Assembly (NCBI RefSeq): GCF_012396365.1
Contig: NZ_JAAXPG010000014.1
Coordinates: 62,001 to 126,000, forward strand
DNA length: 64,000 nucleotides
Reading direction: 5' to 3'
Origin: Nocardiopsis alborubida
GTDB taxonomy: Bacteria; Actinomycetota; Actinomycetes; Streptosporangiales; Streptosporangiaceae
In this document: positions 2,277 to 38,133 of the stretch, piece by piece
Layout of the letters: the number at the start of each line of letters is the position of its first letter
Position numbering within the stretch: the stretch's first letter is position 1
Notes under the pieces: model-generated
What the model saw: only the letters and a program-made list of their open reading frames with translations
Told to the model about the DNA's origin: nothing
The model's database searches: none
Made by a program: the position numbers and the translations under genes

Positions 2277-3134
2277 TCAGTCCGAGGACCGCCGCCCCAG
2301 GGCGAGCACGGTCGGATGGACCATGTAGTAGCCCGGGGCGTCGAGGACGTAGTCCGGATGGCCCGGGGTCAGGAGCCGCTCGACTTCGGCCACCTCCTCA
2401 CCGCTCAGGCCCGCGTCGGTGCCGCGCTTGAGCACCGACTCCCGCATTTCCGGCCAGACGGCGTTCTCCAGGTAGGGGCGCACGGTCGGGTCGGCGTCGA
2501 CGGGCGAGCCCACTCTGGGGAAGACGTTCACATGCACGTCGAGCAGTCCCGCGGCGGCCATCCAGGCGGTGTGGCGCTCATAGTGGGCGGTCCCCCCGGA
2601 GGGGATCCCCCAGTTGAGTTCGGACGCGGTGCGCGCCGCCCGCTCCAGCCGTGAGCGGCCGGGCAGGAACATGGCCTGGTAGTAGTTGCTGGTGAACAGC
2701 CCCAGCAGGCCGCCGGGGCGCAGGGCGCGCGCGGCGCGCGCGACCAGGGCCCCGGGGTCGTCGAAGTTGCCGGGCCAGACCACGTCCGACGCCCAGATCG
2801 CCTCGAACCCGTCGCCGGATTCAGCGGCCTCGTCGAGCACGTCGACCAGGTCGGCGGCGCGTACCTCGACCCTGTCCGACACCCCCTCGGACCGCGCGTG
2901 CTCACGGGCGAGGTCCAGCACGTCGGGGTTGCGGTCGACGGCCAGGACCCGGGCCCGCGGGCCGGCCGCCCGGGCCAGCGCCACCAGCCCGCCTCCGGCG
3001 CCGGTGCCCGCGTCGAGCAGGCGCGTGCGTCCGGACAGGCCCATCGCCGCGACCGCCTGTTCGACGGCCGGGGCGACGAAGGCCCGGTTGGCGAGCAGGT
3101 AGGGGATCAGTCCGTTCTGTTGGATGTCTGTCAA
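2277..3134 (-). CDS. Class I SAM-dependent methyltransferase
   Basis: This 285-residue protein has the SAM-binding motif I LLDAGTGAGGG near residue 40, an acidic end of strand 2 (AVDRNPDVLDLA) and a post-motif IWASDVVW. It therefore has a class I Rossmann methyltransferase fold. The start is a TTG preceded by GAGGTGG at good spacing. An ATG just upstream is out of frame and closes at once. It is the last gene of the leftward metallophore arm, 58 bases after salicylate synthase, so co-transcription is likely. The methyl acceptor cannot be read from sequence; a tailoring step on the siderophore or a precursor is a guess. It is not closely similar to the two other stand-alone-type methyltransferase domains of the cluster. 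Confidence 0.75.
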   Translation of the reverse strand: MTDIQQNGLIPYLLANRAFVAPAVEQAVAAMGLSGRTRLLDAGTGAGGGLVALARAAGPRARVLAVDRNPDVLDLAREHARSEGVSDRVEVRAADLVDVLDEAAESGDGFEAIWASDVVWPGNFDDPGALVARAARALRPGGLLGLFTSNYYQAMFLPGRSRLERAARTASELNWGIPSGGTAHYERHTAWMAAAGLLDVHVNVFPRVGSPVDADPTVRPYLENAVWPEMRESVLKRGTDAGLSGEEVAEVERLLTPGHPDYVLDAPGYYMVHPTVLALGRRSSD

Positions 3135-3192
3135 GGCATGACCACCTCAGCTGTCTCGGATAAGGGACGGTCGCGCTTGTCCGTCAGCGCGG

Positions 3193-4515
3193 TCACGGCC
3201 GCGAGGCGGGCACGACGTGCGGCAGTACGCTGCCCAGTTTCTCGCTGGTCTCCTCGAACTCGCGTTCGGGCCGGGAGCCCTCCACGATTCCGGCGCCGGC
3301 GCGGAGCCAGGCCCGGCCCTGCTCCTCGTAGACCGCGCGCAGGACCAGCGCGGCGTCGAGCTCACCGCGGGATGTGGCGGTCACCACGGCCCCGGAGTAC
3401 AGTCCGCGCTCCTCCTCCAAACGGGTGATCGCCTCGATCGCCCGGGACTTGGGGATCCCCGACGCGGTGATCGCCGGGAACAGGGCCTCGAAGGCGTGCC
3501 ACGGGGTGGCGTCCTCGCCCAGGCGCCCCCGGACGGTGGACGCCAGGTGCTGGACGCTGCCGCGGACGGAGACGCCCATGAACTCCGACACCGCGACGGA
3601 GTCCGGCACGCACACCGAGCGCATCTCCGCGACGGCTTCGCGAACCGATATGGCGTGCTCGTGGATCTCCTTGGGGTCGGCCTCCAGTTCGGCGCGGGCG
3701 GCGCTGTCCGCCGCCTCTCCGAGCCCCGCCGCCCGGGTGCCCGCGAGCGGGTTGGTCAGGACCTCGCGGTCGGGTCCGACCGTGACGACCAGTTCGGGGC
3801 TGAAACCCGCGCTGCGGAGCCCGTCCAGATCCAGCAGGAACGACCGCGCCGGGGTGTTGGCCCTGCGGCCGACCGCGTAGGTGGCGGGGACGTCCACGGG
3901 CGAGGGCAGCTCGACCTTCCGGGACAGGATCACCTTGTGGTAGTCGCCGCGTCCGATCTCGCGCAGGGCCCCGCCCACGAGCGCGCGGTAGGCCGGGGAA
4001 CCGGCTCGTGGATCGACCGTGACGCGGTTCCGCGCCGGTTCGGCGACCTGCTCGCGCAGCACGGAGAGCACCTTCCCGCGCATCTGCGCCCCGCCCCCGC
4101 TGATCCGGGCCCCGTCAGCGGTGATGCGGACTTCGGTCCGGGGCACGATGAGGCGGGCGAGCCGCGCGGACTTCCCGGGGGCGGACGGGTGGGCCCCGCG
4201 TGACCGGAGCGCGAAGTCGAACCCCACCCAGCCGTAGGCCCGCCAGGACGGGTCGGGCAGCCCGGCCAGGGCCGTGTTCAAGGCGTCGGCCGGGCTGCCG
4301 GTGTAGTCGCGGGAGTCGGCGGTCCCGTCGGCGCCGCGGACCGTGACCCGGTCGCTGTCGAGGTCGACCCCCCACCGCACACCGCCGCCGAAGAGCCAGA
4401 CCCCCTCGCGTTCGTAGAGGACGTATTCGGGGAAGAGCCCCGAGCCCGCGAGCCGGGCGGCGGCCGCGACGGGGTCGAGCGGCCCTTCGACCTGTTCGGT
4501 TTCACGACTGCTCAC
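3193..4515 (-). CDS. Salicylate synthase (Irp9/YbtS/MbtI family)
   Basis: This enzyme converts chorismate to salicylate through isochorismate and so supplies the aryl cap of the siderophore. From the GTG at 4513-4515 it has 440 residues, the family length (Irp9 434, MbtI 450). A GAGGAG Shine-Dalgarno sits just upstream, so the longer open frame to 4677 is not needed. Chorismate-using family marks are visible: the lysine in HKVILSRK (K194, aligned with the Irp9 general base K193), NPLAGTR at 255-261, DPKEIHEHAISV at 280-291, TASGIPK at 350-356, and the Mg-binding tail EGSRPEREFEET. The short single-domain form rather than an EntC/PchA form means no separate PchB lyase is required, and none is seen. 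It acts ahead of the salicyl-AMP ligase at 5172-6830. Confidence 0.92.
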   Translation of the reverse strand: MSSRETEQVEGPLDPVAAAARLAGSGLFPEYVLYEREGVWLFGGGVRWGVDLDSDRVTVRGADGTADSRDYTGSPADALNTALAGLPDPSWRAYGWVGFDFALRSRGAHPSAPGKSARLARLIVPRTEVRITADGARISGGGAQMRGKVLSVLREQVAEPARNRVTVDPRAGSPAYRALVGGALREIGRGDYHKVILSRKVELPSPVDVPATYAVGRRANTPARSFLLDLDGLRSAGFSPELVVTVGPDREVLTNPLAGTRAAGLGEAADSAARAELEADPKEIHEHAISVREAVAEMRSVCVPDSVAVSEFMGVSVRGSVQHLASTVRGRLGEDATPWHAFEALFPAITASGIPKSRAIEAITRLEEERGLYSGAVVTATSRGELDAALVLRAVYEEQGRAWLRAGAGIVEGSRPEREFEETSEKLGSVLPHVVPASRP

Positions 4516-4806
4516 GGCCGTCTCCTCGCCCGGGACGACCCGGAGGCCGCGTCTGGTGTACCCGTGGTCAACATTCTTCTCCGGTCTTCTGTGGAGGCCA
4601 GCGAGGACGCCCGCCTCTTCGTCGGACGTGCGCGGCCGCCCACCCGCGGCCCGGTGGCGGGCGCATCCGCCGGTCACGGCCGCCTCGGCGACCGCCGCCG
4701 TGGCCGGTCTCAGTCCTTCGCGTCCAGGGGGGTGCCGATCGGGGCCGACCAGATCCCCTTCCCGTGCGGGGCCGGGGGAGGAGCGGGGGGAGAGCGCGCC
4801 CAGGGT
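4516..4806. other. Intergenic spacer, no gene seen
   Basis: These 291 bases separate salicylate synthase from the ferredoxin gene on the same strand. No convincing reading frame, including an MbtH-like one, was found. It may carry an internal promoter, but I could not assign one. Confidence 0.4.
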
Positions 4807-5004
4807 TCAGTCCGAGGTGAGCTCGATCGCGCCGGAGGGGCAGCGGTCGACCGCGTTGCGCACGTGCGCGGCATCGCGGGGGCCGGGCCGGTCGGTGCGC
4901 AGTCGCACGAGCCCGTCCTCCTCGCCCTGGTCGAATACCCGGTCGGCGGCGATGACGCACTGGCCAGCGCCGATGCAGACCTCGGGGTGGACGGTGACTC
5001 GCAC
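4807..5004 (-). CDS. 3Fe-4S ferredoxin, likely P450 electron donor
   Basis: This 65-residue acidic ferredoxin has the actinobacterial P450-partner pattern: C10-x5-C16 (CIGAGQC) and a single distal CP at C55 (RCPSGAIEL). Three cysteines imply a 3Fe-4S cluster. It starts at GTG behind GGAGGA. The only P450 in the cluster is at 22109-23335, and this ferredoxin is the natural donor. Ferredoxin and P450 genes also occur in the coelibactin cluster of Streptomyces coelicolor (recalled knowledge). A ferredoxin reductase is not in the window. A Fur/Zur-like box lies about 80 bases upstream of the start. Confidence 0.88.
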   Translation of the reverse strand: MRVTVHPEVCIGAGQCVIAADRVFDQGEEDGLVRLRTDRPGPRDAAHVRNAVDRCPSGAIELTSD

Positions 5005-5080
5005 GCGGGGACGTCCTCCTCACTGTGGAGCGGCCCGGACAGGGCCGCCGAACGCCCGAAGGCGCTTGTGTGATCGTAAA

Positions 5081-5095
5081 TGATAATCATTTTCG
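5081..5095. promoter_or_regulatory. Fur/Zur-like operator upstream of the ferredoxin-salicylate synthase operon
   Basis: TGATAATCATTTTCG sits inside a perfect 7-1-7 palindrome (AAATGAT-A-ATCATTT, 5078-5092). From memory, the actinobacterial Zur consensus is close to TGAAAATCATTTTCA, giving 13 of 15 matches. The core also matches the E. coli Fur core. It is unlike the DtxR/IdeR iron box (TTAGGTTAGG). It lies about 80 bases before the ferredoxin start. Confidence 0.72.
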
Positions 5096-5171
5096 CCAGA
5101 AGCGTTCGTCCGTGTGGCTGAGGTCGCAGCGCTCTACGTGTCGCTCCGGTCGCGGAAGGTGGCGAAGGCCC

Positions 5172-6830
5172 TCACCGGATCCGCTCGCGCAGGGCGTTCT
5201 TGTCGACCTTGCCCACGGGGGTCAGGGGCAGCGCGTCGACGGCCTCGATCCGGTCGGGGGCCTTGTAGCCGGCCAGGCCCCTCCCGCGCAGGAAGGCACC
5301 GAGTTCGCGCACCGTGGGAGGGGTGCCCGCGCAGACCAGGAAGGCGACCGACCGCTCGCCGAGGTCCGGGTCGGGGGCGGCCACCAGGGCGACCGCCGAC
5401 ACGTCCGGGTGGGCGAGCAGCTGGCCCTCCACCTCGGTGGCGTCGATCTTCTCGCCGCCGCGGTTGATCTGGTCCTTCACCCGGCCGACGACATTGATGT
5501 GGCCGCTGGGGCGGAGCCGGACGAGGTCGCCGGTCCGGTAGAACCCGTCGGGTGTGAAGTGCGTGGTGGCGAGTTCGGGGGCGCGGTAGTAGCCGCGCAG
5601 TGTGTAGGGGCCCCGTGTCAGCAGCTCGCCCACGGCGCCGACGGGCACGGGGGCACCCGACTCGTCGACCACCCGTACCTCGTCACCGGTGGAGATGGGG
5701 CGCCCCTGCGTGGTGCACACCAGCTCCTCGGGGTCGTCGAGGCGGGTGACGTTGATCAGGCCCTCGGCCATGCCGAACACCTGCTGCAGGCGGCACCCCA
5801 GCGTCGGGCGGACGCGGCGCGCGAGGTCGTCGGCCAGCCGCGCTCCCCCCACCTGGAGGACCGAGAGGCTGTCCAGCTCCGCTGAGCCCGGAGCCCGGTC
5901 GGCGTAGGCCTCCAGCCACACGGGCACCATCGGCGGACTGAGCGCCGTGACGGTCACGCCCTCGCGTTCGATCAGGGGGAACGCCGACTCGGGGGCGGGG
6001 CTGGGCGCCATGACCACCGTCGCGCCCGCGGTGAGCGCGCCCAGGACCCCCGGGCAGGACATCGTGAAGTTGAAGGCGACGGGCAGTACCGCGAGGTAGA
6101 CGCTGTCCGGAGTCAGGTCGCATGCGGCCGCCGCGGCGCGGGCGTTGTAGGCGTAGTCCCGGTGCGTGCGCGGGATGAGCTTGGGCGTCCCCGTGGTCCC
6201 GCCGGAGAGCAGGAGGAGACCGATGTCGCCGGCGGCGGGGCGTCCGGAGTCGGGGGCGCGCTCACCGGAGGCGTCGGAGCGCAGGTCCTCGAAGCCGACG
6301 GCGGCCTCGAGTCCGCCGGTGTCGCCGACGACGATCACATGGCGCAGCTCCCCGTGCTCCTCGCGCATGGACGCGGCCAGCGTCCGGTAGTCGAACCGCG
6401 CGTGGCGGTCGGCCACCGCGTAACCGACCGCGCGGGTGACCCGCAGGAGGTGGGAGATCTCGTGTCCCCGGTGCCCGGGCATGGCGTGGACCGGGACCGC
6501 GCCGAGGTACTGCAGCCCGAACCAGAGCAGCAGGAACTCCGCCCGGTTGGGCAGCTGCACCACCACCCGGTCGCCCCGGCGCAGCCCCCGCCGGTACAGC
6601 CCGGCCGCCACCGCCCTCGCCTCCGCGGCCAGCTCGGCGTAGGACCACCGGCGCTCGCCGTCGACGAGCGCGACGGCGTCGGGGCGCTGCTCCGCCTGGT
6701 GCGTCAGCAGGTCGGCCAGGACCTCCTCGCGCCAGAACCCGGCCGCCCGGTAGCGCTGGCTCGCCTCCTCCGGCCACCCCGGCCAGTCCTGCTCCGGAGC
6801 TGTTACGGGCATGTTTGCGCTCTTGGTCAT
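5172..6830 (-). CDS. Salicyl-AMP ligase (stand-alone aryl adenylation enzyme)
   Basis: This 552-residue member of the DhbE/YbtE/PchD group activates salicylate with ATP and loads it on the aryl carrier domain at the N-terminus of the first NRPS. Visible marks are the P-loop SGGTTGTPK (209-217), FGMAEG, YRTGD and the C-terminal catalytic lysine K541 in TPVGKVDKNAL. In the acid-binding loop the protein reads AFNFTMSCPG (252-261). Aligned to DhbE HNYPLSSPG, the Asn is kept and the DHB/salicylate discriminating position is Cys (C259), as in known salicylate-specific enzymes. The usual His before the Asn is Phe (F253), which is unusual. The start ATG faces a Zur/Fur-like box shared with the divergent NRPS. 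Confidence 0.93.
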   Translation of the reverse strand: MTKSANMPVTAPEQDWPGWPEEASQRYRAAGFWREEVLADLLTHQAEQRPDAVALVDGERRWSYAELAAEARAVAAGLYRRGLRRGDRVVVQLPNRAEFLLLWFGLQYLGAVPVHAMPGHRGHEISHLLRVTRAVGYAVADRHARFDYRTLAASMREEHGELRHVIVVGDTGGLEAAVGFEDLRSDASGERAPDSGRPAAGDIGLLLLSGGTTGTPKLIPRTHRDYAYNARAAAAACDLTPDSVYLAVLPVAFNFTMSCPGVLGALTAGATVVMAPSPAPESAFPLIEREGVTVTALSPPMVPVWLEAYADRAPGSAELDSLSVLQVGGARLADDLARRVRPTLGCRLQQVFGMAEGLINVTRLDDPEELVCTTQGRPISTGDEVRVVDESGAPVPVGAVGELLTRGPYTLRGYYRAPELATTHFTPDGFYRTGDLVRLRPSGHINVVGRVKDQINRGGEKIDATEVEGQLLAHPDVSAVALVAAPDPDLGERSVAFLVCAGTPPTVRELGAFLRGRGLAGYKAPDRIEAVDALPLTPVGKVDKNALRERIR

Positions 6831-6899
6831 CTCTGCTCCTTTTGCGTTCTATGCCACACATAGGGGGGATCGCGCTCGGCGCCCAGCTTAGGATAAAAA

Positions 6900-6914
6900 A
6901 GATAACGGTTTTCG
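6900..6914. promoter_or_regulatory. Fur/Zur-like operator in the divergent ligase/NRPS promoter
   Basis: AGATAACGGTTTTCG shares 11 of 15 positions with the box at 5081-5095, including GATAA-N3-TTTTCG. The surrounding 6890-6930 is AT-rich in a very GC-rich region. It sits 70 bases upstream of the ligase start and 86 bases upstream of the first NRPS start, so one regulator could control both arms. Confidence 0.6.
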
Positions 6915-6999
6915 TTTTCAAGCGAATCATCGGCCCCCGGCTCCCACCGGGTTCAGGTCGGCCCCCGAAGCCCGCTGCGAGTCAAGGAGACGATCACGC

Positions 7000-9900
7000 G
7001 TGTCGCTGCCAGCCGATCCGCCAACGGTGCCCACGACGGAAGGGGAACTGCGCGCCGCGGTCGCCGCGCTGGTGGACATCCCCCCGGAGGAGGTCGGCCC
7101 GGATGACGACTTGTTCGAGCTCGGCCTGGACTCCATCGCCCTGATGCGCCTGGCCTCGCGGTGGCGGCGCGCCGGTCTGGGGGTCGGCTTCGACGAACTC
7201 GCGGAAGCGGCGACCCTGCGCGGTTGGCAGCACCTCCTGGCGCCGACCGGTCCGGCCGGGGGGCCGGGCCCCGAGGCGGAGGACCCCGGCGGCCCCTTCC
7301 CGCTCGCCGCCATGCAGCACGCCTACTGGATCGGGCGCCAGCCGGGCCAGCCCCTCGGCGGGGTCGGCGCGCACTTCTACGCCGAGCTCGACGGCTCGGG
7401 AGTCGACGCGGCACGCCTTGAGGCCGCGGTGACGGCGCTGCGCCGCCGCCACGGGATGCTGCGCGTCACCGTGCTCGACGACGGCCGCCAGCGCGTGCTG
7501 GACCGCCAACCCGAACCCGCGCTGACCGTGCGCGACCTGCGGGAGGAGACGGCCGAGCGGGTCGACCAGGTGCTGGCCGAACTGCGCGAGTACTACACCC
7601 ACCGGCGGATGGACGTTGAGCGGGGCGAGGTCTTCGACCTCGCGCTGACGCTCCGCCCCGGCGGCGCCACCCGGCTGCACATCGACCTCGACATGCTGGC
7701 GGCCGACGCCGCGAGCATGCGGGTGCTGCTGCGCGACCTCCAACTGCTCTACGCCGACCCCGACGCGGACCTTCCGGAGATCCCCCTGGACTACCGCGCC
7801 TACCTGAGCGCGGCCGAGACCACCCGGGCGAGGGAACGGGAGGAGGACCGCGCCTGGTGGAGCGGGCACCTGGAATCGCTGAGCGCCCCACCGGCCCTTC
7901 CCACCGTCGTGGACCCGCTCGACCCGGACTCCTCCTCGCCGCGCTTCCACCCGACCACCCGGCTGCACCACTGGCTCGACCCCGAGCGCAAGGAACGGCT
8001 GATCGCCGCCGCACGCGGCCACGGGGTCACCCCCGCCGCCGCGTTGGCGGCCGCCTTCGCCGAGGCCCTCGGGGCCTGGAGCGACTCCCCGAGATTCCTG
8101 CTGAACCTCCCGCTGTTCCACCGCGACCTGGACCTGGCGGGGGCCGAATCGCTCGTCGGCGACTTCAGCAGCTCGATCCTGCTCGACGTCGACCTCACCG
8201 AGGAGCGGACCTTCGCCGAGTCCGCGCGCCACGTACAGACCCGCCTGCGCACGGCGGCCGCCCACGGCTCCTACTCCGGTGTCGAGGTGCTCCGGGACCT
8301 CTCCCGCACCTCCGACGGCGTGCCGGCCCTGGCCCCCGTCGTCTACACCAGCGCCCTGGGCCTGGGCGAGATCTACGACTCCGAGGTCAGGAACGCGTTC
8401 GGCGATCCGGTGTGGATCATCTCCCAGGGCCCCCAGGTCTGGCTGGACGCCCAGGTGACCGAACTCGACGGCGGGCTGCTCCTGAACTGGGACGTGCGGC
8501 ACCGCGCGTTCGAGCCGGGCGTTCCCGAGGCCGCGTTCGCGGCCTACCGCGACCTCGTCGAGGACCTGGTCGACGACGCCTCGGCGTGGACCAGGCCCGC
8601 GGATCCGCCGTTGCCCGCGGCTCAGGCGCGCGTGCGCGAAGCGGTCAACGCCACCGACGCGCCCGCCGTGACCGAACGGCTGCACGAGGGCTTCTTCCGC
8701 TCCGCACGCGAGAATCCCGCAGCCGTCGCGCTGGTCCCCGACTCCGGCGAACCGGTGACCTACGCCGTGCTCGCCGATCGCGCGGGTCGTGTCAGCGCGC
8801 TGCTGTCGGAGGCGGGGGTGGTGCCGGGCGACGCCGTGGTGGTCAGCCTGCCCCGTGGCGTGGAACAGGTCGCCGCGGTGCTCGGAGTCCTGGGCGCGGG
8901 CGCCGCCTACATCCCCGTCGGGGTGGAACAGCCCGCGGATCGGATGGCGCGCGTCCTGAACGCGGCCGACGCCGCGGCCGTGCTCACCGACTCCGCGCAC
9001 GCCGACCGGTTCACCGACCCACCGCGGGGCCGGCAGGGGACGCCGGTCGTGCGGATCGAGGACGCGGACCGGCTCGCACCCGCGCAGCCGGAGCTCCGGC
9101 AGCCCCTCGACACGACCGCCTACGTCATCTTCACCTCCGGTTCCACCGGGGTTCCGAAGGGCGTGGAGGTCGCGCACGCGGCGGCCATGAACACCATCGC
9201 CGCTCTGAACGACCACTTCGACGTGGGGCCGCGGGACCGGGGCCTGGCACTGGCGGACCTGGACTTCGACATGTCCGTCTACGACCTCTTCGCCCCCCTG
9301 TCCGCGGGAGGTTCGGTGGTCCTCGTCGGAGACGAGTCCCGCCGCGACGCCCACCACTGGGTCACGATGATCCGTGAGCACGGGGTCACGCTCCTGAACT
9401 GCGTGCCCGCTCTGCTCGACATGGTGCTGACCGCCGCCGAGTCACGTCCCGAGGGCCTCGGCGACCAGCTGCGGTTCGTGCTGCTCGGCGGTGACTGGGT
9501 CGGTCTCGACCAGCCCGCGCGCCTGCGCGCCCTGGTCCCGGGCGCCCGGTTCACCGCCCTGGGCGGGATGACCGAGGCCGCCGTGCACTCCACGGTGTTC
9601 GAGGTCGACCGGGTCGACCCCTCGTGGGCCTCGGTCCCGTGGGGCAGGCCGCTGCCCAACATGCGCGCCCGGGTCGTGGACCACCGCGGCCGCGACCGCC
9701 CCGACTGGGTGGCGGGCGAGCTGTGGGTCAGCGGCGCGGGACTGGCGACCGGCTACCGCGGCGACCCCGAGCGCACCGCCGACAAGTTCGTGACCGACCA
9801 GGGCCGCCGGTGGTACCGCACCGGGGACCGGGCGCGCTACCGGTCCGACGGCGTCCTGGAATTCCTCGGCCGTGCCGACCACCAGGTGAAACTACGCGGA

Positions 9901-16500: not shown

Positions 16501-19028
16501 TCCCCGCCGTCCGGAACGCCGCCCGGGAGGCCGGGCGGCGGGTGGACACCGCGGGGCTCGCCGCGTTCCGCGCCGCGCTCAGCGAGGCGGCCGCGGCGTC
16601 CGTCGCCGACACGCTCGCGCCGGTGTTCGCCGATGGCGGCGCGTACTCACCGGAAGAGGTGTCCGACGCTCTGGGAGCGGCCCCCGCACACCACCGGCTG
16701 GTACGGCGCTGGCTGAACGGGCTCGTCACGGCCGGTCTCCTGGAGCGCACGCCCCAGGGGAAGCTGAGCGGCCTGCGTGCCCCCGGTCCGCAGGCCACCG
16801 CCCGCGCCTGGGCCGAGGCGGCCCGACTCGAAAGCAAGGCGGGGTGGAGCACCGAGCTGTTCGCCACGGTGCGTTCCAGCGCCGAGCACCTGTCCGACCT
16901 GGTCGCCGGCCGTGAGGAGGCGGCGGCCCGGCCGTTCTCCGGAGCCGATCCGCAGGCGCTGACCGCCGCCTACGCGGAGAACGCGGGCTCCTCGGCACTG
17001 CGTTCGGTCCTGGCCGCCGCGGCCGCCGAGATCGCCCGGACCCGCGACACCCCGGACCCGCTGCGGGTCATGGAGGTCGGACTGCGCGGCGGCGGAGTGG
17101 CCGCCGACCTGCTGTCCGCCCTCTCCGACCACCCGGTCGACTACCTGGCGACCGACGGGTCGGCCCAGAACCGCTCCGCGTTCGAGCGGAACTTCTCCGA
17201 CGACCCCCGGGTGCGCTGCGCGGCCTTCGACCCCGCGCAGGACCCGGCCGAACAGGGACTGGCGCGCAACTCCGTCGACCTGCTGGTCTGCGTCGGCGTC
17301 CTGGACAACCTCCCCGACGCGAACGCCGCCCTGGACCGGCTCTCCACCCTGGTGGCGCCGGGCGGGTGGATGCTCCTGCTGGCCAACACCGATGACGACG
17401 ACCACGCGCTCCGCGTCTCCGCGGAGTTCATGGCCGAGCACGCGGGGCCGTTCACCGACGTCCGCCAGGAGCGGGAGCAGACGTTCCTTCGCCACGAACA
17501 GTGGCGGGAGCTGCTCGGCGACGGCGACAGCGGCCGCCGGATCGCCGCGGAGTTCCCCGAGGACCCCGAAACGGCCCGGGCCTTCGGACAGCACGTGTAT
17601 CTGGTCCAGGCCAAACCGATGCAGGCCCCGGTGGCGGTGGAATCACTGACGCGCCGCGGCCACGAGCTGCTCCCCGAGTACTCGGTGCCCTCGCACTGGG
17701 AGATCGTCGACGCCCTGCCGAGAACGGAGAACGGCAAACTGGACCGCGGCGCGCTGGAGAAGCGGTCGCTCCAGCTGGGAACCGGCTCCGCGGAGGAGGC
17801 CGGTGACCAGACGCCCCGCGACGACCTCGAACGCGCACTGGCGGACCTGTGGGCCGAGCTGCTCGAAACGGAGCACATCGGACGCGACGACGACCTCTTC
17901 GCGCTGGGCGGCGACTCGCTGCTGGTGGCCCGCATCGTCGGGCGGCTGCGCGACGGGTTGGCCGGGCATGAGTGGGACCTCGAGTGGGAGGTGGTCCTGC
18001 GCCACCTGCTGCGCCGACCGACCATCGCGGGCCTGGCAGCCTACCTGCGCGAACTCTCCGCCCCCGAAGCGGAGGACGAGGCCGAGAACTCGCCGCTGGT
18101 GGAGCTGATCGCGCCCCGGCCCGGCGCCCCGGTGACCGTGCTCGTACACGCCGGAACGGGGACCCTGCTCCCGTACCGGCCCCTGGTCACCCGGCTCCGC
18201 GCCCGTTCCACCGAAGGACACGGCCTGGTGGGTCTGGAGCTGCCGGCGCCCGAGGACTTCCGCAACGCCGACCCGAACGGGCTCATCGACCGCACGGCCG
18301 CCGAGTACGTGCGCGCCCTGATCGACGCCGGGCACACGCGGGTCGACGTCGTCGGCTACTGCGTGGGCGGGGTCATCGCCACCGAGGTGGCCCGCGGGCT
18401 CGCCGAGGCCGGTGCCACCGTCCGGAGTCTCACGGTCATCAGCAGCCACAGCCCGACCTTCCGTATCGACGACGAGCTGCTCTCCGAGTACTCCTTCTCG
18501 CTCATGATGGGCATGGACCAGGCCCGTATCGGGTTCCCCGCCGACTCCGACCGCGTCGGTGAGGCGGTCTCCGCCCTGCTCGACCGTTCTCCGGAGGCCG
18601 TCCTGGACGGCGCGATCGCCGATCTGGACGGGGAGTTCGCCGATGTCGGGGCCTCCTTCGAGGCCCTGGAGGCGCTGCCCAGGATGGCCCGGGTGAAGCG
18701 CATGTGCGAGGCGCTGCCGCCCGAGCTCGCCGACACCTACCAGCCCGAGGGCCTGCTGCGGGCGCTGCGCACCTACCAGCAGAGCATCTTCGCGCTGAGC
18801 CGGCACCGGGCCGAACCCTACGCGGGCGACATCACCTTCCTGCGGCACAACGGCGCCTACCCCTTCCCGGGAAGCGCCGACACCATCGCCGACCACTGGG
18901 CGCGGATCTGCCTCGGCGAACTGCGCACCCGCGACATCCCCGGCGAGCACTTCACCTGCATGACGGGTCAGAACGTCCCCACCGTGGACGGTCACCTGCA
19001 CGAGATCATCGAAGGGAAGACGTCATGA
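13557..19028 (+). CDS. NRPS: docking-Cy-A(Cys)-MT-like insert-PCP-TE
   Basis: This terminating synthetase has 1823 residues from a TTG that overlaps the previous stop (TTGA), with GCGGAG upstream. Residues 1-52 form a TubC-like docking domain (pattern GIRLWEDGG...LRFRAPKG). The Cy domain follows, with DQLIVDYAS (D203, D208, S211). The A domain has P-loop at 667-675 and the exact cysteine code D-L-Y-N-L-S-L-I-W. Between motifs A8 and A10 lies an inserted methyltransferase-like domain (about 1000-1350, as in PchE, PchF and HMWP2) with an atypical SAM loop EVGLRGGG at 1173-1180. Then come catalytic K1394, a PCP (S1454) and a thioesterase (about 1510-1815). The TE nucleophile elbow is GYCVGG, giving Cys1602 instead of Ser, with candidate His1798. 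It adds the last thiazoline and releases the product. Confidence 0.95.
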   Translation: MNAHQIVSEMEKDGIRLWEDGGALRFRAPKGVLTEERKALLRENRAEVLSHLTARRRAARITPDPQQAGTPFPLTDIQAAYLVGRGSAYGYGGVACHVYVELSFPADTDPERLQDSWWSVVRRHGMLRAVVHPDGFQEVLPEIPETPVPTADLRGAASAEVEARVDLVRRELASRVPPTDVPPLFELRMTRCDDELILHLSIDQLIVDYASLLLVLSELEDTYHGREGETLEIGFRDYVLARRNQTLTGEYDRARDYWTRRLPTLPPAPDLPLPADGGQVGAFRRFEEVLSAEQRASFEANAVRAGVTASAAAMAAYAEVLGRWSRSPRFTLNVPTFTRLPLHADVDRLVGDFTSVELLAVDLRPAQTFAERAATLRDTLLEDLEHSLYTGSQVLADLTRRSDSDTVLMPVVFTSTLGSAAARRPAAAIRHAQTQTPQVWLDCQVMERADELALSWDVREGVLGGDTAADLFAAFTALMTRLAEDPDAWNEAARIELPEATRAVRERVNDTSAPVPRALLQDGVLAAAERDPRRVAVLDRDRSLTYGELVAHATAVARALGASGVGAGDLVAITMEKGWEQVAGVLGTLLAGAAYLPLDTTQPPQRRGAILTDAGASVVLTQSWLVEEGEWPPGCRTVAVDGLPPVSGPAPRPDTSPDDLAYVIYTSGSTGAPKGVMISHAAALNTITDVNRRFGVTADDRVLALAQLGFDLSVYDIFGPLAVGAAVVLPDPARRGDPSEWIETVRNRQVTFWNSVPGQLQMVHDYLRADDPPLPSLRVALLSGDWIPTALPEAVRSWAPNMAVHSLGGATEASIWSIHHPIDRVDPAWRSIPYGRPMDNQTFHVLDTALRPCPDLVVGELYIGGVGLAQGYFGDQERTEARFIRHPETGERLYRTGDMGRYWPDGVIEFLGREDQQVKIRGYRIELGDVQAAVESLPEVGAAAVVLTGGRGTAPTGAGQSLTAFVEPARLDTPLPIPETLVPAVRNAAREAGRRVDTAGLAAFRAALSEAAAASVADTLAPVFADGGAYSPEEVSDALGAAPAHHRLVRRWLNGLVTAGLLERTPQGKLSGLRAPGPQATARAWAEAARLESKAGWSTELFATVRSSAEHLSDLVAGREEAAARPFSGADPQALTAAYAENAGSSALRSVLAAAAAEIARTRDTPDPLRVMEVGLRGGGVAADLLSALSDHPVDYLATDGSAQNRSAFERNFSDDPRVRCAAFDPAQDPAEQGLARNSVDLLVCVGVLDNLPDANAALDRLSTLVAPGGWMLLLANTDDDDHALRVSAEFMAEHAGPFTDVRQEREQTFLRHEQWRELLGDGDSGRRIAAEFPEDPETARAFGQHVYLVQAKPMQAPVAVESLTRRGHELLPEYSVPSHWEIVDALPRTENGKLDRGALEKRSLQLGTGSAEEAGDQTPRDDLERALADLWAELLETEHIGRDDDLFALGGDSLLVARIVGRLRDGLAGHEWDLEWEVVLRHLLRRPTIAGLAAYLRELSAPEAEDEAENSPLVELIAPRPGAPVTVLVHAGTGTLLPYRPLVTRLRARSTEGHGLVGLELPAPEDFRNADPNGLIDRTAAEYVRALIDAGHTRVDVVGYCVGGVIATEVARGLAEAGATVRSLTVISSHSPTFRIDDELLSEYSFSLMMGMDQARIGFPADSDRVGEAVSALLDRSPEAVLDGAIADLDGEFADVGASFEALEALPRMARVKRMCEALPPELADTYQPEGLLRALRTYQQSIFALSRHRAEPYAGDITFLRHNGAYPFPGSADTIADHWARICLGELRTRDIPGEHFTCMTGQNVPTVDGHLHEIIEGKTS

Positions 19029-20170
19029 TCGGCCTCATCGGCGCCTCGGGCGCGGTCGGTCGCCATACCGCCGCCGCCCTGGCCCAAGCCGGCGTCGGCC
19101 CGTTGCGCCTGGGAGCCCGGCGGCCCTCCGCCGTGCCCCCGGGCCCCTGGCCCGAAGGCAGCGAGACCGTCGGGGTCGACGCCCTGGACCCCGCCTCACT
19201 CGCCCGGTTCAGCGCGGACTGCACCCTGTTGGTCAACTGCGCCGGACCGAGCTACCTGCTCAAGGACACCGTCGTCCGGGCCGGGCTGGCCGCGGGCGCC
19301 GACGTCGTCGACGTCCTCGGCGACGACCCCGTCCACGAGTCCCTGACGGAGTCGGGCGCGGTCGGGTCGGACCGCTGCGTCGTCCTTTCGGCCGGGACCG
19401 TCCCCGGCCTGGCCGGCCTCGTCCCCCTCTGGCTCGCCGGAGCCGACCCCGGGAGGGGGCCGGCGCGCAGGATGACCGGTTACGCCGGCGGGCTGGAGCA
19501 CGCGACCGAGAGCGTGGCGGCCGACATCGTGCTCTCCCTCGACACCGGCGGAGCGGGCGGCGAGCGCTTCGGCCGCCCCTTGGCGGCCTGGCGACACGGC
19601 CGCCGCGCCGACAGGGCCCTGCGGGTGGCCGACGGCGCCGAGGTCCCCTACTTCCCCCACCGGGTCACCCTGCACCCGCTCCTGACCGCCGAGGTGGAGC
19701 GCCTGGCCGCGCGGATGGGCCTGGCCGAGGCCGACTGGTACAACGTCTTCCCCGGAGCGCAGGTGCGCGCACTGTTCACCGCGCTGCCGACGCTGCCGAT
19801 GGACACAGCCGGGGAGCGGGCCGCGGTGACCGAGCGCATCCGGCGCGCGGCCGAGGTCGACGCCGCGGGCAGCGCGCCCTACTACCGCCTGGTGTTCGGC
19901 CTCTCGGGGCAGGACTGGGCGCGCACCTGCGTCGTGTACAGCGAGAGCAGCTACCAGCTCACCGGCGCGGTCGCGGCGCTCGCGGTCCTGGACGTCCTCG
20001 CCGGCCGCATCGGCAGGGGGCTGCACTACGCCGCCGAGGCGATGGATCCGCGAGCCACGGTGGCGGCGCTCAGCGCCAACGGGGACGCGGAGTTCGCGGT
20101 CCATGAGCACGCCTCCGCGCTGCCGGACCCCGGGGACGCGGACGCCGCCGTCGAGGACGGTGAACTGTGA
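19025..20170 (+). CDS. Saccharopine-dehydrogenase-like NAD(P)-binding protein
   Basis: This 381-residue protein begins with a Rossmann dinucleotide fingerprint (MIGLIGASGAVG) and contains LLVNCAGPSYLLKDTVVRAGL and the stretch ending VLSAGTVPGLAGLVPLWLAG, characteristic of the saccharopine dehydrogenase-like superfamily. The ATG overlaps the NRPS stop (ATGA), and its own stop overlaps the next start (GTGA), so it is tightly coupled. A protein of this type lies at the same place in coelibactin-like clusters (recalled). Its reaction is unknown. A redox step on a ring or on the released acid is inference. It is not a homologue of the thiazolinyl imine reductase encoded next door. Confidence 0.8.
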   Translation: MIGLIGASGAVGRHTAAALAQAGVGPLRLGARRPSAVPPGPWPEGSETVGVDALDPASLARFSADCTLLVNCAGPSYLLKDTVVRAGLAAGADVVDVLGDDPVHESLTESGAVGSDRCVVLSAGTVPGLAGLVPLWLAGADPGRGPARRMTGYAGGLEHATESVAADIVLSLDTGGAGGERFGRPLAAWRHGRRADRALRVADGAEVPYFPHRVTLHPLLTAEVERLAARMGLAEADWYNVFPGAQVRALFTALPTLPMDTAGERAAVTERIRRAAEVDAAGSAPYYRLVFGLSGQDWARTCVVYSESSYQLTGAVAALAVLDVLAGRIGRGLHYAAEAMDPRATVAALSANGDAEFAVHEHASALPDPGDADAAVEDGEL

Positions 20171-22119
20171 GCGCCCCGGCGCCGCTGCGCGCCGTCGTCT
20201 GCGGCACGAACTTCGGCCGCCTCTACATCGACGCCGTCCAGCGCCACCCGGAGTTCACCCTGGCGGGGATCCTCTCCACGGGCAGCCGTTACTCCCGGGA
20301 GCTGGCCGCACGGCACGGTGTACCCTGCCACACCTCCCCGGAGGAGCTGCCCGACGACATCGACGCCGCCTTCGTGGCGGTTCCCGCGGCGGTCATGGGC
20401 GGTAGGGGCTCGGAGCTCGCGCGCACCCTGCTCGACAGGGGGGTGCACGTGCTCCAGGAGCACCCGCTGCACCCCGACGAGCTGTCGGAGTCCCTGCGCG
20501 CGGCGCGGCGGGCCAACCGGCAGTTCCAGGTCAACACCCACTACCCCCACGTGGCCCCGGTGCGCGGCTTCATCGAGGCGGCCGGCAGGCTGAGGAGGCT
20601 GCAGCGCGTCCTGTTCGTCGACGCGGCGGCCCCGGTCCACGTTCTGGCCCCCCTGATCGACATCCTGGCCCGCGCCCTGGGCGGTACACGCCCCTGGCGG
20701 CTGGGCGATCCGGCTCCGGTGCCCGAGGACGTCGCCGCGGCCGCGAACGGCGAGGCGCCGCTGAGGCTGCTGCACGGCGCCATCGCCGGTGCCCCGCTGA
20801 CGTTGCGGGTGCACAACCAGCTCCATCCCGGCGACCGCGACAACCACTCCCTCTTCTGGCACCGCGTGGCGGTGGGTACCGAAGGCGGGGTCCTGACCCT
20901 GGCCGACACCCACGGTCCGGTGCTGTGGCACCCGCGGGTGCACTCCCCCCGGGACTCCGGGCACCGGCTGGTGTTCACGCCCGAGGCCGGTGCCGAGGCG
21001 CTCCGGCTGCCCGCGTCGGCGGTCCTGGACCGGGTGGACCCGGCGCCCCGCATCTCCGACATCTTCTCGGAGCTGTGGCCCGAGGCGATCGGCGAGGCCC
21101 TCGACGGCTTCGCCGCGGCGATCGCCGCGGGCGGGGACCCGCTCCGGTCGGCCCAGCACGACCTCGCGGTCTTCGCGGTCTGGCGGGACCTGATGGCCCG
21201 TCTGGGACCACCGGAGCTGATCCGTCCCGCCGACCCCGAACCCCTGGCTCCCGCCGTGCTCGCGTCGCCCGGCGCCCCGGCGGGGTCCGCCGGCCCCCGG
21301 GCCGACGAGGCCCGCCCGGCCCTTGCCGGTGAACCGGCCCGCCCGCACGCGGCGGACCTGTCGGACTACAACGAGGCCGCGGAGTTCTTCGACCTCGGTG
21401 CGCGCGAGCACACCGCCCGCACCGGCCCCGCGGTCGTCGCGTGCCTTTCCGGGATCGACCCGGGCGCCGGGCTCCTGGTGGACATCGGTGCGGGCAGCGG
21501 ACTGGTCACCCGGCAGGTCGCGGCGGCCTACCCCGACTCCCGGCTGATCGCCACCGAACCCGCCGCGGGGATGCGCGCCCTGCTCACGGCCCGGGTCGGC
21601 GACGACCCCGGGCTCGCGCGGAGGGTGACCGTCCTGCCCCACGCCGCGGAGCGCCTGCTGGAGCCGGGAGTCCTCCCCGAACGGCTGTGCGGGGTCGTGG
21701 TCTGCGGGGTGCTGGGTCACCTCGAACCCGACCTCCGACGCGAACTCCTGCTGGGGCTGGCCCGGCGCCTGGCGCCCGGGGCCCCGATCGTGGTCGAGCT
21801 GACGGGGATGCGCGAGCCCACGACGATCCGCCCGACCCTCCTGCGCCACGCCGAGCTCGGCGACCAGCGGTACGAGTGGTGGATGTCCGGAGAACCGGAC
21901 GGCCCGGACCGGATGCGCCTCGACACCGCGTGGCGCGTCTTCCGGGGGGATGAGCCCGTACGCGAGGTCCGGGAGCAGTACCGCTGGTACACGCTGGAGC
22001 TCGCACAGCTCGCCCGGGAGTGCGGTCTGCGCCTCACCCCGCCGCCCGCACCCCACACCGCGAGCGTGCCCTACCTGGGTACGCTCACGGCGCCGGGGGA
22101 CGGTTCGGTCACCACGTGA
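20167..22119 (+). CDS. Thiazolinyl imine reductase fused to a SAM methyltransferase
   Basis: The 650-residue product has two parts. Residues 1 to about 380 match the Irp3/YbtU/PchG reductase family, with the N-terminal nucleotide motif VVCGTNFGRLYI, the family sequence VLQEHPLHPDE and the HYPHVAPVRGF region. These enzymes reduce a carrier-bound thiazoline to a thiazolidine with NADPH. Residues about 395-650 form a class I methyltransferase (DIGAGSG at 439-445). This half closely resembles the free-standing methyltransferase at 24369-25130, sharing APIVVEL, YEWW and WxVxRGD. A linker rich in Ala, Pro and Gly joins the halves. The GTG start overlaps the previous stop. The 3' end overlaps the convergent P450 by 11 bases. 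The fusion suggests one ring is reduced and methylated in coupled steps. Confidence 0.9.
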   Translation: MSAPAPLRAVVCGTNFGRLYIDAVQRHPEFTLAGILSTGSRYSRELAARHGVPCHTSPEELPDDIDAAFVAVPAAVMGGRGSELARTLLDRGVHVLQEHPLHPDELSESLRAARRANRQFQVNTHYPHVAPVRGFIEAAGRLRRLQRVLFVDAAAPVHVLAPLIDILARALGGTRPWRLGDPAPVPEDVAAAANGEAPLRLLHGAIAGAPLTLRVHNQLHPGDRDNHSLFWHRVAVGTEGGVLTLADTHGPVLWHPRVHSPRDSGHRLVFTPEAGAEALRLPASAVLDRVDPAPRISDIFSELWPEAIGEALDGFAAAIAAGGDPLRSAQHDLAVFAVWRDLMARLGPPELIRPADPEPLAPAVLASPGAPAGSAGPRADEARPALAGEPARPHAADLSDYNEAAEFFDLGAREHTARTGPAVVACLSGIDPGAGLLVDIGAGSGLVTRQVAAAYPDSRLIATEPAAGMRALLTARVGDDPGLARRVTVLPHAAERLLEPGVLPERLCGVVVCGVLGHLEPDLRRELLLGLARRLAPGAPIVVELTGMREPTTIRPTLLRHAELGDQRYEWWMSGEPDGPDRMRLDTAWRVFRGDEPVREVREQYRWYTLELAQLARECGLRLTPPPAPHTASVPYLGTLTAPGDGSVTT

Positions 22120-23335: not shown

Positions 23336-23551
23336 ACCAGCCCTTCTGTGCAGGGTTCAAAAACGGCAAGAAAAATCGGGGAAACGGAGAATTCGACTGA
23401 TCTTCACTGATAACTTTACAGCGCACGGATCCGATTTCCAACCCGATTGGCAATATGCGATCCGAGATCAATGTCACCGACGTCGCCAATAGCGGTGCCA
23501 TTAAAAGCCATTCTATTCTCACCGGAAAAGAACGCGAGGAGTGGAATTCCC
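23336..23551. promoter_or_regulatory. Divergent promoter region of P450 and thioesterase
   Basis: This 216-base spacer is clearly richer in A and T than its surroundings, as expected for a two-way promoter. I found no convincing copy of the GATAA-N3-TTTTCG box present at the other two cluster promoters. Confidence 0.5.
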
Positions 23552-24343
23552 ATGGACCTGAGGCACCCGCCCATCAGCCCGTGGCTGCGTCGGCCCCAGC
23601 ACCGCCCACGCGCGGACGTGCGGCTCGTCTGCCTGCCCCACGCCGGGGGATCGGCGTCCTCGCTGAGACCGTGGCAGTACCTGCTGCCCCCCGGTATCGA
23701 AGCGCTGACCGTGCAGTACCCCGGGCGCGAGGACCGGTTCGGGGATCCCATGGTCGACACGATGCCCGAGGTCGTCGACGCGGTCGTGGACGCGCTCGCC
23801 CCCCTCCTGGACCGCCCCTACGCGCTCCTGGGCCACAGCATGGGAAGCGCCGTCGCCTACGAGGTGGCCGTCGAGGCGCGCCGGAGGGCGATCCCGGCCC
23901 CGGTCCGGCTGTTCGCGTCGGGACGGCCCGCGCCCCTCCACGTCAGGCCCGGAGACGTCCACCTGCGCGACGACGAGCACCTGGCGGCCGACCTGACCCG
24001 GCTTGGCGGCACCCCGCCGGAGGTCCTGGCCGACGAGGAGCTGCGGACCGCGGTTCTGCGCTACGTGCGCAACGACTACCGGTTGATCGAGACCTACCAG
24101 CCCACCCGGGCCGAACCGCTCGACACGCCCGTGCACGTCTTCGTCGGCGCACAGGACCCGGAGTGCTCCGAGGAGGACGCGGCGACCTGGAAGACCACGA
24201 CGACCGGCGAGGTCACGACCGAGGTGTTCCCGGGCGGTCACTTCTTCCTCGCCCAACAGCGCCGCCGGGTCGCGGCGGCCGTCGCCCGGGCCCTGGGCCA
24301 CGCACCGGCCGAGACGGCACCCGCCTGGCCCAGCACACCCTGA
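23552..24343 (+). CDS. Type II thioesterase
   Basis: This 263-residue alpha/beta hydrolase has the family N-terminal LVCLPHAGGSASSL, YPGRE, nucleophile elbow GHSMG (S96) and C-terminal GGHFFL with the catalytic His. Stand-alone TEII enzymes clear mis-primed or stalled acyl groups from NRPS carrier domains. The start is the ATG at 23552 behind GAGGAG; a longer frame to 23447 has no ribosome site and an unconvincing N-terminus. It is followed after 25 bases by a methyltransferase gene in the same operon. Its partners are the four carrier domains of the two NRPSs. Confidence 0.92.
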   Translation: MDLRHPPISPWLRRPQHRPRADVRLVCLPHAGGSASSLRPWQYLLPPGIEALTVQYPGREDRFGDPMVDTMPEVVDAVVDALAPLLDRPYALLGHSMGSAVAYEVAVEARRRAIPAPVRLFASGRPAPLHVRPGDVHLRDDEHLAADLTRLGGTPPEVLADEELRTAVLRYVRNDYRLIETYQPTRAEPLDTPVHVFVGAQDPECSEEDAATWKTTTTGEVTTEVFPGGHFFLAQQRRRVAAAVARALGHAPAETAPAWPSTP

Positions 24344-24368
24344 CGCCACCACGACAAGGGAGATCACC

Positions 24369-25130
24369 ATGGTCGCCGACTACTACACGGCCTCGGCCGA
24401 GTTCTACGAGATGGTCGCGGCACGCCATGTGCGCACCAGTGCCGGACCGCTGCGCGCGGCGCTGGCCGGGGTCGCCCCCGGCTCCGGCCCCGTCGTCGAG
24501 ATCGGAGCCGGCACGGGCCGCATCACCGAAGTGATAGCGGAGGCCCTGCCGAGTGCTCCGATCATCGCCGCGGAACCGTCCACGCCCATGCGGGCGATGC
24601 TCACCAGCCGGGTCGTCGGCAACGACGACCTGCGCCGACGCGTGACCATCAGCGCCGAACCCGCCCAACACCTGCGGCTGCCCGACCGGGTCGGCGCGGT
24701 GGTCGTCTTCGGGGTGATCGGCCACCTGACCAAGGACGAGCGGCTGGCGCTGTGGCACGAGCTGAGGGCCCATGTCCCGCCCGGTGCGCCGATCGTCGTG
24801 GAACTCATGGGCACCGGTTCCGCCAGAGCCGTTCCCCCCTTCCGTATGCTGCGGGAACGCATCGGCGAGCAGACCTACGAATGGTGGACGCGGGCCGAAC
24901 CCGTCGAGGGCGCCGAGACCGAGGTCCTCCGGTGGGAGACCACCTGGAAGGTCCTCCGCGGCGACACGGTGGTGCGCAGCACCAGCGACAGCTACGTGTG
25001 GGAGAACCTCAGCATCGCCGGGCTCGCGGAGGAAGCCGGTGCGACCGGGCGCCTGGTCAGCGAGCCCGGTCTGCCCGGAGCCCCCGAGATCGGCGTTCTC
25101 ACCTTCCCGGGGCCCGACCGGGGCCGCTGA
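24369..25130 (+). CDS. SAM methyltransferase, paralogue of the reductase-fused domain
   Basis: This 253-residue class I methyltransferase has motif EIGAGTG at 44-50. It shares with residues 395-650 of the protein at 20167-22119 the segments PGAPIVVEL, TYEWW/RYEWW and WKVLRGD/WRVFRGD. Duplication or fission/fusion within the cluster is therefore evident. It is the last gene of the rightward arm, behind a GGGAGATCACC Shine-Dalgarno. C- or N-methylation of a ring is the likely role; acceptor unknown. Having both copies suggests two methylated positions, or that one copy is redundant. Confidence 0.82.
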   Translation: MVADYYTASAEFYEMVAARHVRTSAGPLRAALAGVAPGSGPVVEIGAGTGRITEVIAEALPSAPIIAAEPSTPMRAMLTSRVVGNDDLRRRVTISAEPAQHLRLPDRVGAVVVFGVIGHLTKDERLALWHELRAHVPPGAPIVVELMGTGSARAVPPFRMLRERIGEQTYEWWTRAEPVEGAETEVLRWETTWKVLRGDTVVRSTSDSYVWENLSIAGLAEEAGATGRLVSEPGLPGAPEIGVLTFPGPDRGR

Positions 25131-33269: not shown

Positions 33270-33273
33270 GGTG

Positions 33274-34973: not shown

Positions 34974-35057
34974 TGCTTCCCCCACGGATCGCGTGACCGG
35001 TGCCGGGCCCGGCCCCTGTGTGACGTGTGCCTCGTGAGGCGGGGCACATACCTGGAG

Positions 35058-35089
35058 ATATTGCACCAAGATGAACGCGAGTGCAATAT
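35058..35089. promoter_or_regulatory. Inverted-repeat operator between tctC and aconitase
   Basis: ATATTGCAC (35058-35066) and GTGCAATAT (35081-35089) form perfect 9-bp arms 14 bases apart, in the tctC promoter about 85 bases before its start. The GntR regulator at 38134-39075 is the obvious candidate binder. Confidence 0.6.
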
Positions 35090-35427: not shown

Positions 35428-38097
<2,670 letters not shown>

Positions 38098-38133
38098 GAC
38101 GGCCGGGCGCCCGAGGGCGACGGCAGCCGTCCG

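Follow-up and report, generated by a model that had tools for sequence, protein, structure and literature searches.

How can an assembly line that makes three heterocycles charge its second peptidyl carrier protein (PCP2) when the adenylation (A) domain that should serve this carrier has lost its catalytic motifs? The question was raised by a salicylate-capped nonribosomal peptide synthetase (NRPS) metallophore cluster of Nocardiopsis alborubida, located at positions 2277–25130 of the stretch of DNA analysed here (the window: 64 kb, positions 62001–126000 of contig C6 in the 7.16 Mb actinomycete genome G000). As read from its translation, the second A domain (A2) of the first synthetase, NRPS1, is dead in this cluster, and PCP2 is probably loaded in trans, backwards across the subunit border, by A3, the cysteine-coded A domain of the following subunit, NRPS2. 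We give a probability of about 0.7 to this model as a whole, namely a coelibactin/sorangibactin-type pathway in which one adenylation activity has been lost and A3 covers PCP2 in trans.

The earlier note on this DNA had described a metallophore gene set of the coelibactin type, with three heterocycles, no polyketide synthase (PKS) module in the line and one heterocyclisation (Cy) domain more than pyochelin, and all of this was borne out: Pfam and NCBIfam profile scans of the window frames, together with the translations, placed every gene that it had named. NRPS1 (7000–13560, plus strand; domain scan and translation) reads aryl carrier protein (ArCP)-Cy1-A1-PCP1-Cy2-A2-PCP2, with A1 at 8635–10254, an intact Cy2 at 10495–11829, the dead A2 at 11875–13284 and PCP2, retaining its carrier serine (FAAGGDSL), at 13300–13515, all on the plus strand. 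NRPS2 (13557–19028, plus strand), whose TTG start overlaps the NRPS1 stop, reads TubC docking domain-Cy3-A3-PCP3-thioesterase (TE), with a methyltransferase (MT) insert in A3; the A3 core (15105–16520), with the cysteine code DLYNLSLIW, the embedded MT-like domain (16530–17594) and the TE domain (18105–19025) lie on the plus strand as well. Direct reading of the translations found DxxxxDxxS in Cy1, Cy2 and Cy3, and the domain scan gave no PKS match in NRPS1 or NRPS2. Pyochelin systems have two Cy domains and the cluster has three; the combination of a PKS part with a single A domain, as in yersiniabactin, was not found either, PKS matches being absent and two further A domains intact in sequence.

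That all A domains function, as the earlier note had assumed, is contradicted by the translation of NRPS1, in which A2 has no P-loop. Twenty-one whole NRPS1 proteins, from Nocardia to Sorangium, were aligned, nine of them from a dead-A2 clade (the window, G019 and Streptomonospora nanhaiensis in the Nocardiopsis group, plus Streptomyces PTY087I2, MP131-18, zhaozhouensis, AC558, lonarensis and spiramenti) and twelve from other clusters. The P-loop, the A5 motif GGATE, the A7 Asp and the A10 Lys of A2 are all gone in the nine and all present in the twelve, so that the departure from a collinear line with three working A domains, caused here by A2, is a difference within the family. The motif losses vary between members of the clade, and the code positions drift in most. 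A tree built without A2 gives a single origin of the loss (support 100/100), the clade adjoining Nocardia donostiensis and Micromonospora marina, which have an intact A2. In a wider set, in which A-domain cores were read at the best 80 of 148 confirmed named loci plus Nocardiopsis-group relatives, 70 rows were labelled A2: 58 intact (including L112_1, really an A3, and L098 and L103, which come from other kinds of cluster), 10 dead (L031 and L114 being one genome, S. nanhaiensis) and 2 cut and unreadable (L062, L123). The intact rows carry cysteine codes with small variations. No mention of a dead A2 in the coelibactin/sorangibactin family was found in the literature searched, most of it represented by less than the full text, which is no proof of absence.

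Which A domain, then, would serve PCP2? The A1 code, DMYNLGLVHK in all nine dead-A2 clusters, is close to the DLYNLGLIHK of Sorangium So0157-2 and also threonine-like by known codes; its predicted substrate is a hydroxy amino acid, Ser or Thr, which A1 would load and Cy1 would close to an oxazoline. The first residue of sorangibactin is serine by feeding, according to the available part of its report (PMC10127202). A-domain hits were decoded genome-wide at E ≤ 1e-40 only, and A3 proved to be the only cysteine code among the hits of its own genome (9/9 decoded, the cluster's three included) and of Streptomyces MP131-18 (9/9), as well as among those decoded in S. nanhaiensis (10/16) and S. spiramenti (11/22). 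Since PCP2 ends NRPS1 and the TubC docking domain opens NRPS2, A3 is likely to lie near PCP2. Because A1 has a non-cysteine code, A3 bears the sole cysteine code decoded and the two partners would be close, supply of the PCP2 cysteine in trans by A3, docked via TubC, is the best reading, and Cy2 and Cy3 would then form two thiazolines. The cysteine might instead come from another A domain, be it A1 with cysteine as an additional substrate or one in an NRPS from another locus, and yersiniabactin, where a PCP is loaded in cis by an A domain that precedes it (PMC9547227, in its available part), lends this some plausibility; the uniform non-cysteine code of A1 in 9/9 clusters and the lack of any further cysteine code among the hits at E ≤ 1e-40 of the two completely decoded genomes make it unlikely.

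Module skipping occurs in NRPSs, and a PCP2 left without cysteine, giving a two-ring product, would agree with an A2 that is dead in 9/9 members. A skipped module should however relax in Cy2 too, and this was not seen. The DxxxxDxxS of Cy2 and the serine of PCP2 are retained in 21/21 aligned NRPS1 proteins, and mean identity within the dead-A2 clade is 44.9% for A2 versus 73.7% for Cy2, the most conserved NRPS1 domain there; in the twelve intact clusters A2 itself ranks first by a narrow margin (60.9% versus 60.3% for Cy1). Similarly, the ratio of nonsynonymous to synonymous substitution rates (dN/dS, NG86) in five clade pairs is 0.40–0.63 for A2 versus 0.13–0.23 for Cy2, with Cy2 the lowest of the NRPS1 domains in 5/5 pairs. 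Skipping of module 2 is thus distinctly improbable. All A2 values stay below 1, and its A-domain fold is predicted to be kept (structure prediction from eight sequences, pLDDT 71.5; best PDB match PchE, TM 0.61 by query length), so that A2 may still serve as a spacer.

Decay of the whole cluster, with no product made, would account for one dead domain and for an embedded MT lacking its S-adenosylmethionine (SAM) glycine, but the motifs examined in the Cy, A1, A3, carrier and TE domains are all intact, NRPS1 and NRPS2 are both open frames, dN/dS is 0.08–0.27 for Cy3, A3 and TE in four clade pairs, and the dead A2 is a state shared by nine clusters from two genus groups that arose once on the tree; we regard decay of the whole cluster as very improbable. 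That A2 is still active with unusual motifs and the line fully collinear is hardly credible, given that all four motifs are lost through member-specific changes with code drift in most, even if the fold is predicted to persist and the A2 of PTY087I2 retains Cys-like code positions with Arg in place of the A10 Lys.

Several points count against loading of PCP2 by A3 and the model built on it. A-domain hits were left undecoded in S. nanhaiensis (6/16) and S. spiramenti (11/22), cysteine could be a side substrate of A1, and the coelibactin/sorangibactin family offers no demonstrated precedent for an A domain of a downstream subunit loading an upstream PCP. As regards the rates, dN/dS of A1 is nearly level with that of A2 in one pair (0.47 versus 0.49), and that of PCP2 (72 codons) slightly exceeds it in another comparison (0.44 versus 0.42, one pair). 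Both the product and the loading scheme are read from sequence, and the release onto homocysteine proposed below is drawn from analogy.

Outside the family, the nearest precedent for a neighbouring module supplying a dead A domain is reportedly that of bleomycin, between BlmIV and BlmIII. In albicidin, ramoplanin and enduracidin a non-functional A domain is likewise bypassed by another, but there the helper is a stand-alone adenylation-thiolation (A-T) protein, as stated in the accessible part of PMC8949500. Because dead A domains with helpers are already known, trans-loading here would be a variant and not a new principle. In yersiniabactin (HMWP2/HMWP1) and equibactin several PCPs are charged, in cis as well as in trans, by one cysteine A domain (available portions of PMC9547227 and PMC3672683); the single A domain of HMWP2 reportedly loads two carriers in cis, PCP1 and PCP2, and a third, PCP3, in trans (PMC9547227). 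The other A domains of those systems are absent and not decayed, their donor lies upstream and yersiniabactin has a PKS part, whereas here no PKS part is found, the donor A domain belongs to the downstream subunit and the substrate of A1 is a different one.

A second altered domain was found in NRPS2, where the SAM methyltransferase embedded in the last A domain is present with a changed SAM motif. In an alignment of 33 NRPS2 proteins this motif reads EVGLRGG[GS] in 9/9 dead-A2 clusters (EVGLRGGG in the window), with R at the central Gly, and ARGGG or VR[GS]GG in three sister clusters (L038–L040); the other 21 retain the central Gly, L042 having Ala for the first Gly. The His of the VLHN motif is replaced by Asp in the nine dead-A2 clusters (VLDN in the window) and by Asn in the three sisters, and it is retained in 20/21 of the remainder. 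The exception, Sorangium So0157-2, combines Asn with a normal SAM motif, so that loss of this His alone is no proof of a dead MT. Since dN/dS of the embedded domain (0.17–0.43 in four clade pairs versus 0.21–0.39 in four intact pairs) reveals no A2-like drift, death of the domain and a change of role are equally likely. A PchE-type epimerase was considered for this domain and rejected. The E domain of PchE uses His1204, according to the available part of PMC8807600, and the clade has Asp where 20/21 non-sister relatives have His; PchE was absent from the ten PDB matches of the embedded domain, and the correspondence to His1204 is an assumed one.

The thiazolines formed by Cy2 and Cy3 would be processed by enzymes encoded directly downstream. 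A frame at 20167–22119 (plus strand) fuses a thiazolinyl imine reductase (TIR; 20167–21240; NCBIfam family score 309 bits versus a cut-off of 189) to a methyltransferase (21352–22116), although an internal start may exist. This TIR-MT fusion suggests that thiazoline reduction is coupled with N-methylation, perhaps with the help of a saccharopine-dehydrogenase-like NAD(P)-binding protein (SDH, SrbE-like; 19022–20170, plus strand), which by analogy may be a second thiazoline reductase. The enantio-pyochelin cluster holds a "saccharopine dehydrogenase PchK" (PMC3377617, partial source), likened to SDH by name and not by sequence. Counting stop-to-stop frames, the fusion was seen in 25/76 loci with a TIR hit (L113 repeating L031), including coelibactin-type Streptomyces clusters, and was thereby ruled out as a clade-specific trait. 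The cluster holds four methyltransferase domains in all, the remaining two being MT1 (2277–3134, minus strand), a class I enzyme matching Methyltransf_31/25 over cut-off, and MT4 (24369–25130, plus strand), paralogous to the MT fused to the TIR. Separately, a paralogue of the cluster MT (35% over residues 400–626 of the fusion) lies on contig C16 (L129 8084–10160) beside a CobW gene closest to ZigA, below cut-off; this site may mark another metal-responsive locus.

Thiazoline C-methylation in watasemycin and thiazostatin is carried out by a radical-SAM-like methylase, and no radical SAM match was found among the cluster proteins scanned with Pfam. Chain release would be performed by the TE of NRPS2, which reads GYCVGG, with a Cys nucleophile, perhaps onto homocysteine as in sorangibactin. 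The Cys nucleophile is not family-wide, Nocardia members reading GYSVGG.

Salicylate would be made by the salicylate synthase SalS (3193–4677, minus strand; TIGR03494, 478 bits versus an NCBIfam cut-off of 325), activated by the aryl-AMP ligase SalA (5172–6830, minus strand) and loaded on the ArCP. SalA matches AMP-binding, its closest NCBIfam family being that of dihydroxybenzoate (DHB) ligases (DHB_AMP_lig), below cut-off, and is taken as salicyl-specific because a salicylate synthase is encoded nearby. The oxazoline would probably be oxidised to an oxazole by a cytochrome P450 (22109–23335, minus strand) with a 65-aa ferredoxin (4807–5004, minus strand; Fer4_19, Fer4_13 and Fer4_15 over cut-off) as its likely partner. 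The best PDB match of the P450 is 3TYW, the CYP105N1 of coelibactin. A P450 of at least 40% identity within the fetched stretch was present in 32/39 clusters with a non-Cys A1 and in 0/16 with a Cys A1 (Fisher p = 8e-9, the clusters being related and hence not independent). These 55 clusters leave out loci with A1 outside the stretch, nine ORFs whose position marks them as NRPS2, L084, the duplicate L114 (= L031) and Sorangium So0157-2 (non-Cys A1, P450 of 35%); L112, L116 and L118 were set to "yes" by hand, the gene lying in the neighbouring stretches L111, L117 and L119. Since SrbH is proposed, from its deletion product, to act on the oxazoline of sorangibactin (PMC10127202, available part), the co-occurrence of the P450 with a non-Cys A1 fits a P450 acting likewise. 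The seven of 39 non-Cys-A1 clusters that have no P450 in the fetched stretch speak against this assignment, one of them (L072) being of little information as it ends about 1 kb past the SDH gene.

The family assignment of the earlier note is correct, and its statement that the product appears undescribed for this architecture is too strong, because the type is known from sorangibactin and from a coelibactin listing. Among characterised systems sorangibactin (2023) comes nearest. According to the accessible part of its report (PMC10127202), it joins a phenol-oxazole to two N-methylthiazolidines and ends in a homocysteine thiolactone, is acid-labile, and is made by the coelibactin-like srb cluster of Sorangiineae MSr11367. 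As far as described there, the srb line shares the salicylate start, the NRPS domain order (CP-HC-A-CP-HC-A-CP, then HC-A-MT-CP-TE, CP being carrier protein and HC heterocyclisation domain), a TE (SrbD) with an essential cysteine nucleophile, the saccharopine-dehydrogenase-like protein, the TIR, the P450, two MTs and a hydrolase. It differs in that substrates are predicted for each srb A domain, with no dead A domain mentioned in the part available, and in that its TIR and its MTs appear there under protein names of their own; its VOC protein SrbJ has no counterpart here, no VOC/glyoxalase match having been found among the cluster frames scanned with Pfam, a search that did not extend to the rest of the genome. 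The srb cluster was likened by description, with Sorangium So0157-2 (A1 DLYNLGLIHK, A2 intact) as stand-in for sequence. By this comparison, the three rings of the earlier note stand, whereas probably two of them and not one are reduced, an oxazol(in)e derived from a hydroxy amino acid is the probable first ring, and an extra C-terminal unit on the product is possible. A sorangibactin-like product with Ser would have the [M+H]+ of 507.119 published for sorangibactin A, one with Thr is calculated at 521.135, and a missing methyl would lower the value by 14.016.

As to coelibactin itself (Streptomyces coelicolor SCO7676–92), the gene set is the same and the P450 is nearest to its CYP105N1. The coelibactin-type clusters of S. 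ardesiacus, S. tendae and SirexAA-E, stand-ins for the S. coelicolor sequence, differ in having an intact A2 and the A1 code DLWQLGLVHK. An orthologous cluster is found in S. nanhaiensis 12A09 (L031; SDH 85% identity) and falls within coordinates listed as "Coelibactin" in the available part of PMC12842786, assuming the same assembly. Mupirochelin of Pseudomonas NCIMB 10586 is, by description, a coelibactin-like aryloxazoline that complexes Fe and Zn, differing by its Gram-negative uptake (PMC10080011, available part). Its m/z of 509.1345 equals within error the reported 509.1332 of sorangibactin C (C22H28N4O4S3), and they may be identical compounds or isomers.

Along the window, the cluster starts beside an importer operon (plus strand, from upstream of the window, ending at 2176), followed by MT1, SalS, the ferredoxin and SalA on the minus strand, then by NRPS1, NRPS2, SDH and TIR-MT in overlapping plus-strand frames, the P450 on the minus strand, and a type II thioesterase (TEII; 23552–24343, longest frame from 23447) and MT4 on the plus strand. 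GC content by codon position, used as a coding check, read the cluster frames as coding except SDH, which failed the filter, and the ferredoxin, which fell under its length cut; these two gene calls rest on homology. The nearest matches of SDH are in Nocardiopsis akebiae (92%), N. prasina (89%), a JGI protein (88%) and N. tropica (86%). Two MbtH genes are present in the genome, none within the cluster, and the window has no tRNA gene. NRPS2 had no near match in a phage collection, and the relatives of NRPS1 in a plasmid collection were all below 60% identity (best among the matches listed, 50.4%). Downstream, at 31737–39075, TctA and TctC transporter genes, an aconitase-family gene and a GntR regulator are apparently unrelated to the cluster.

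Gene control would be exerted by a metal-responsive Fur-family repressor, most likely Zur, which is our best guess from predicted operators. The better one, the Zur/Fur-like TGATAATCATTTTCG at 5081–5095, lies upstream of the ferredoxin gene; the second and weaker Zur-like element, AGATAACGGTTTTCG at 6900–6914, lies in the divergent promoter of SalA and NRPS1. In S. coelicolor, SCO7676 is the gene that we take to encode the ferredoxin. Zur of that species binds tGaNNatSatNNtCa, with peaks at SCO7676 and SCO7681/7682, according to the accessible part of PMC5472717, matching the positions of both elements here. The TGATAATCATTTTCG-type motif had 2 matches in 64 kb at ≤3 mismatches versus 0.01 expected, and the site is retained in G019 (L112) and, with two changes inside, in S. 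nanhaiensis (L114). The weaker element has four mismatches to the S. coelicolor motif, and lies inside 24 nt identical across the three orthologues. A related Zur/Fur pattern gave three sites genome-wide, including that at 5081, and zero when read backwards; of the other two, one stands before a Fur-family gene accompanied by ABC genes and one before a Peripla_BP_2 gene. A Fur-family regulator and, after it, two ABC_membrane/ABC_tran proteins lie under a Zur/Fur-like box some 43 kb away from the cluster (C6 130256–134873; L130 4256–8873). An iron box of the IdeR/DmdR type was sought and none was found in the window at ≤3 mismatches.

The assignment to Zur is weakened by an equal match to the S. 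coelicolor motif at 28893–28907, the second of the two matches in the window, in the 3' end of an SSF gene, by the lack of an identified zinc gene adjoining any of the three genome-wide sites and by the resemblance of the operator at 5081 to a Fur box as well. Moreover, in the available parts of their reports, sorangibactin is iron-regulated (PMC10127202) and mupirochelin iron-regulated with some repression by zinc (PMC10080011).

The complex may be taken up, in the Nocardiopsis group, by the Opp-type ABC importer at the left edge, a candidate consisting of an SBP_bac_5 gene (C6 59030–60934) and a first permease (C6 60601–61932), both upstream of the window (L124 9030–11932), an Opp/Dpp-type permease (46–780, plus strand; BPD_transp_1) and a fused double ATPase (773–2176, plus strand; ABC_tran in two stretches). 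The 46–780 permease occurs in 8/37 relatives, which are exactly the eight with the SDH gene (E ≤ 1e-40). Some of these carry clusters with an intact A2, and G010 has another kind of cluster; in seven genomes at most about 20 kb separates the permease from the SDH gene, and in G015 the distance is about 0.5 Mb. Against this candidate, the 10 kb flanks fetched for the six Streptomyces clusters of the clade showed no close importer. Relatives of the Opp-type permease and ATPase were also seen at L095, L097, L104, L105, L109 and L120, where matches to SDH, Cy and MT mark another kind of cluster, possibly a further metallophore family.

What is added here to the earlier note, namely the dead A2, the altered embedded MT, the TIR-MT fusion, the Cys-nucleophile TE, the operators and the Opp-type importer, concerns a family that was itself already known; the novelty lies in the clade-wide loss of one A domain with the ring chemistry apparently retained. 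We consider it somewhat better than an even chance that the clade preserves an intermediate between a collinear NRPS and the A-domain sharing of HMWP2-like systems: A2 would have died in the common ancestor, leaving its fold as a spacer and the cysteine A domain of the next subunit to load backwards, and the embedded MT would have changed one step earlier, because the loss of its central SAM Gly is shared with three sister clusters, its work having perhaps moved to trans enzymes such as TIR-MT. The automatic reading of A domains in coelibactin/sorangibactin-type clusters is corrected accordingly by the motif losses, and the TIR-MT fusion and the co-occurring importer provide testable assignments for reduction/N-methylation and uptake in the coelibactin family. 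Nine dead-A2 clusters with unequal decay, standing beside intact relatives, form a natural series for the loss of an A domain without apparent loss of a ring, which bears on the origin of A-domain sharing in yersiniabactin-like systems and on the engineering of lines with fewer A domains.

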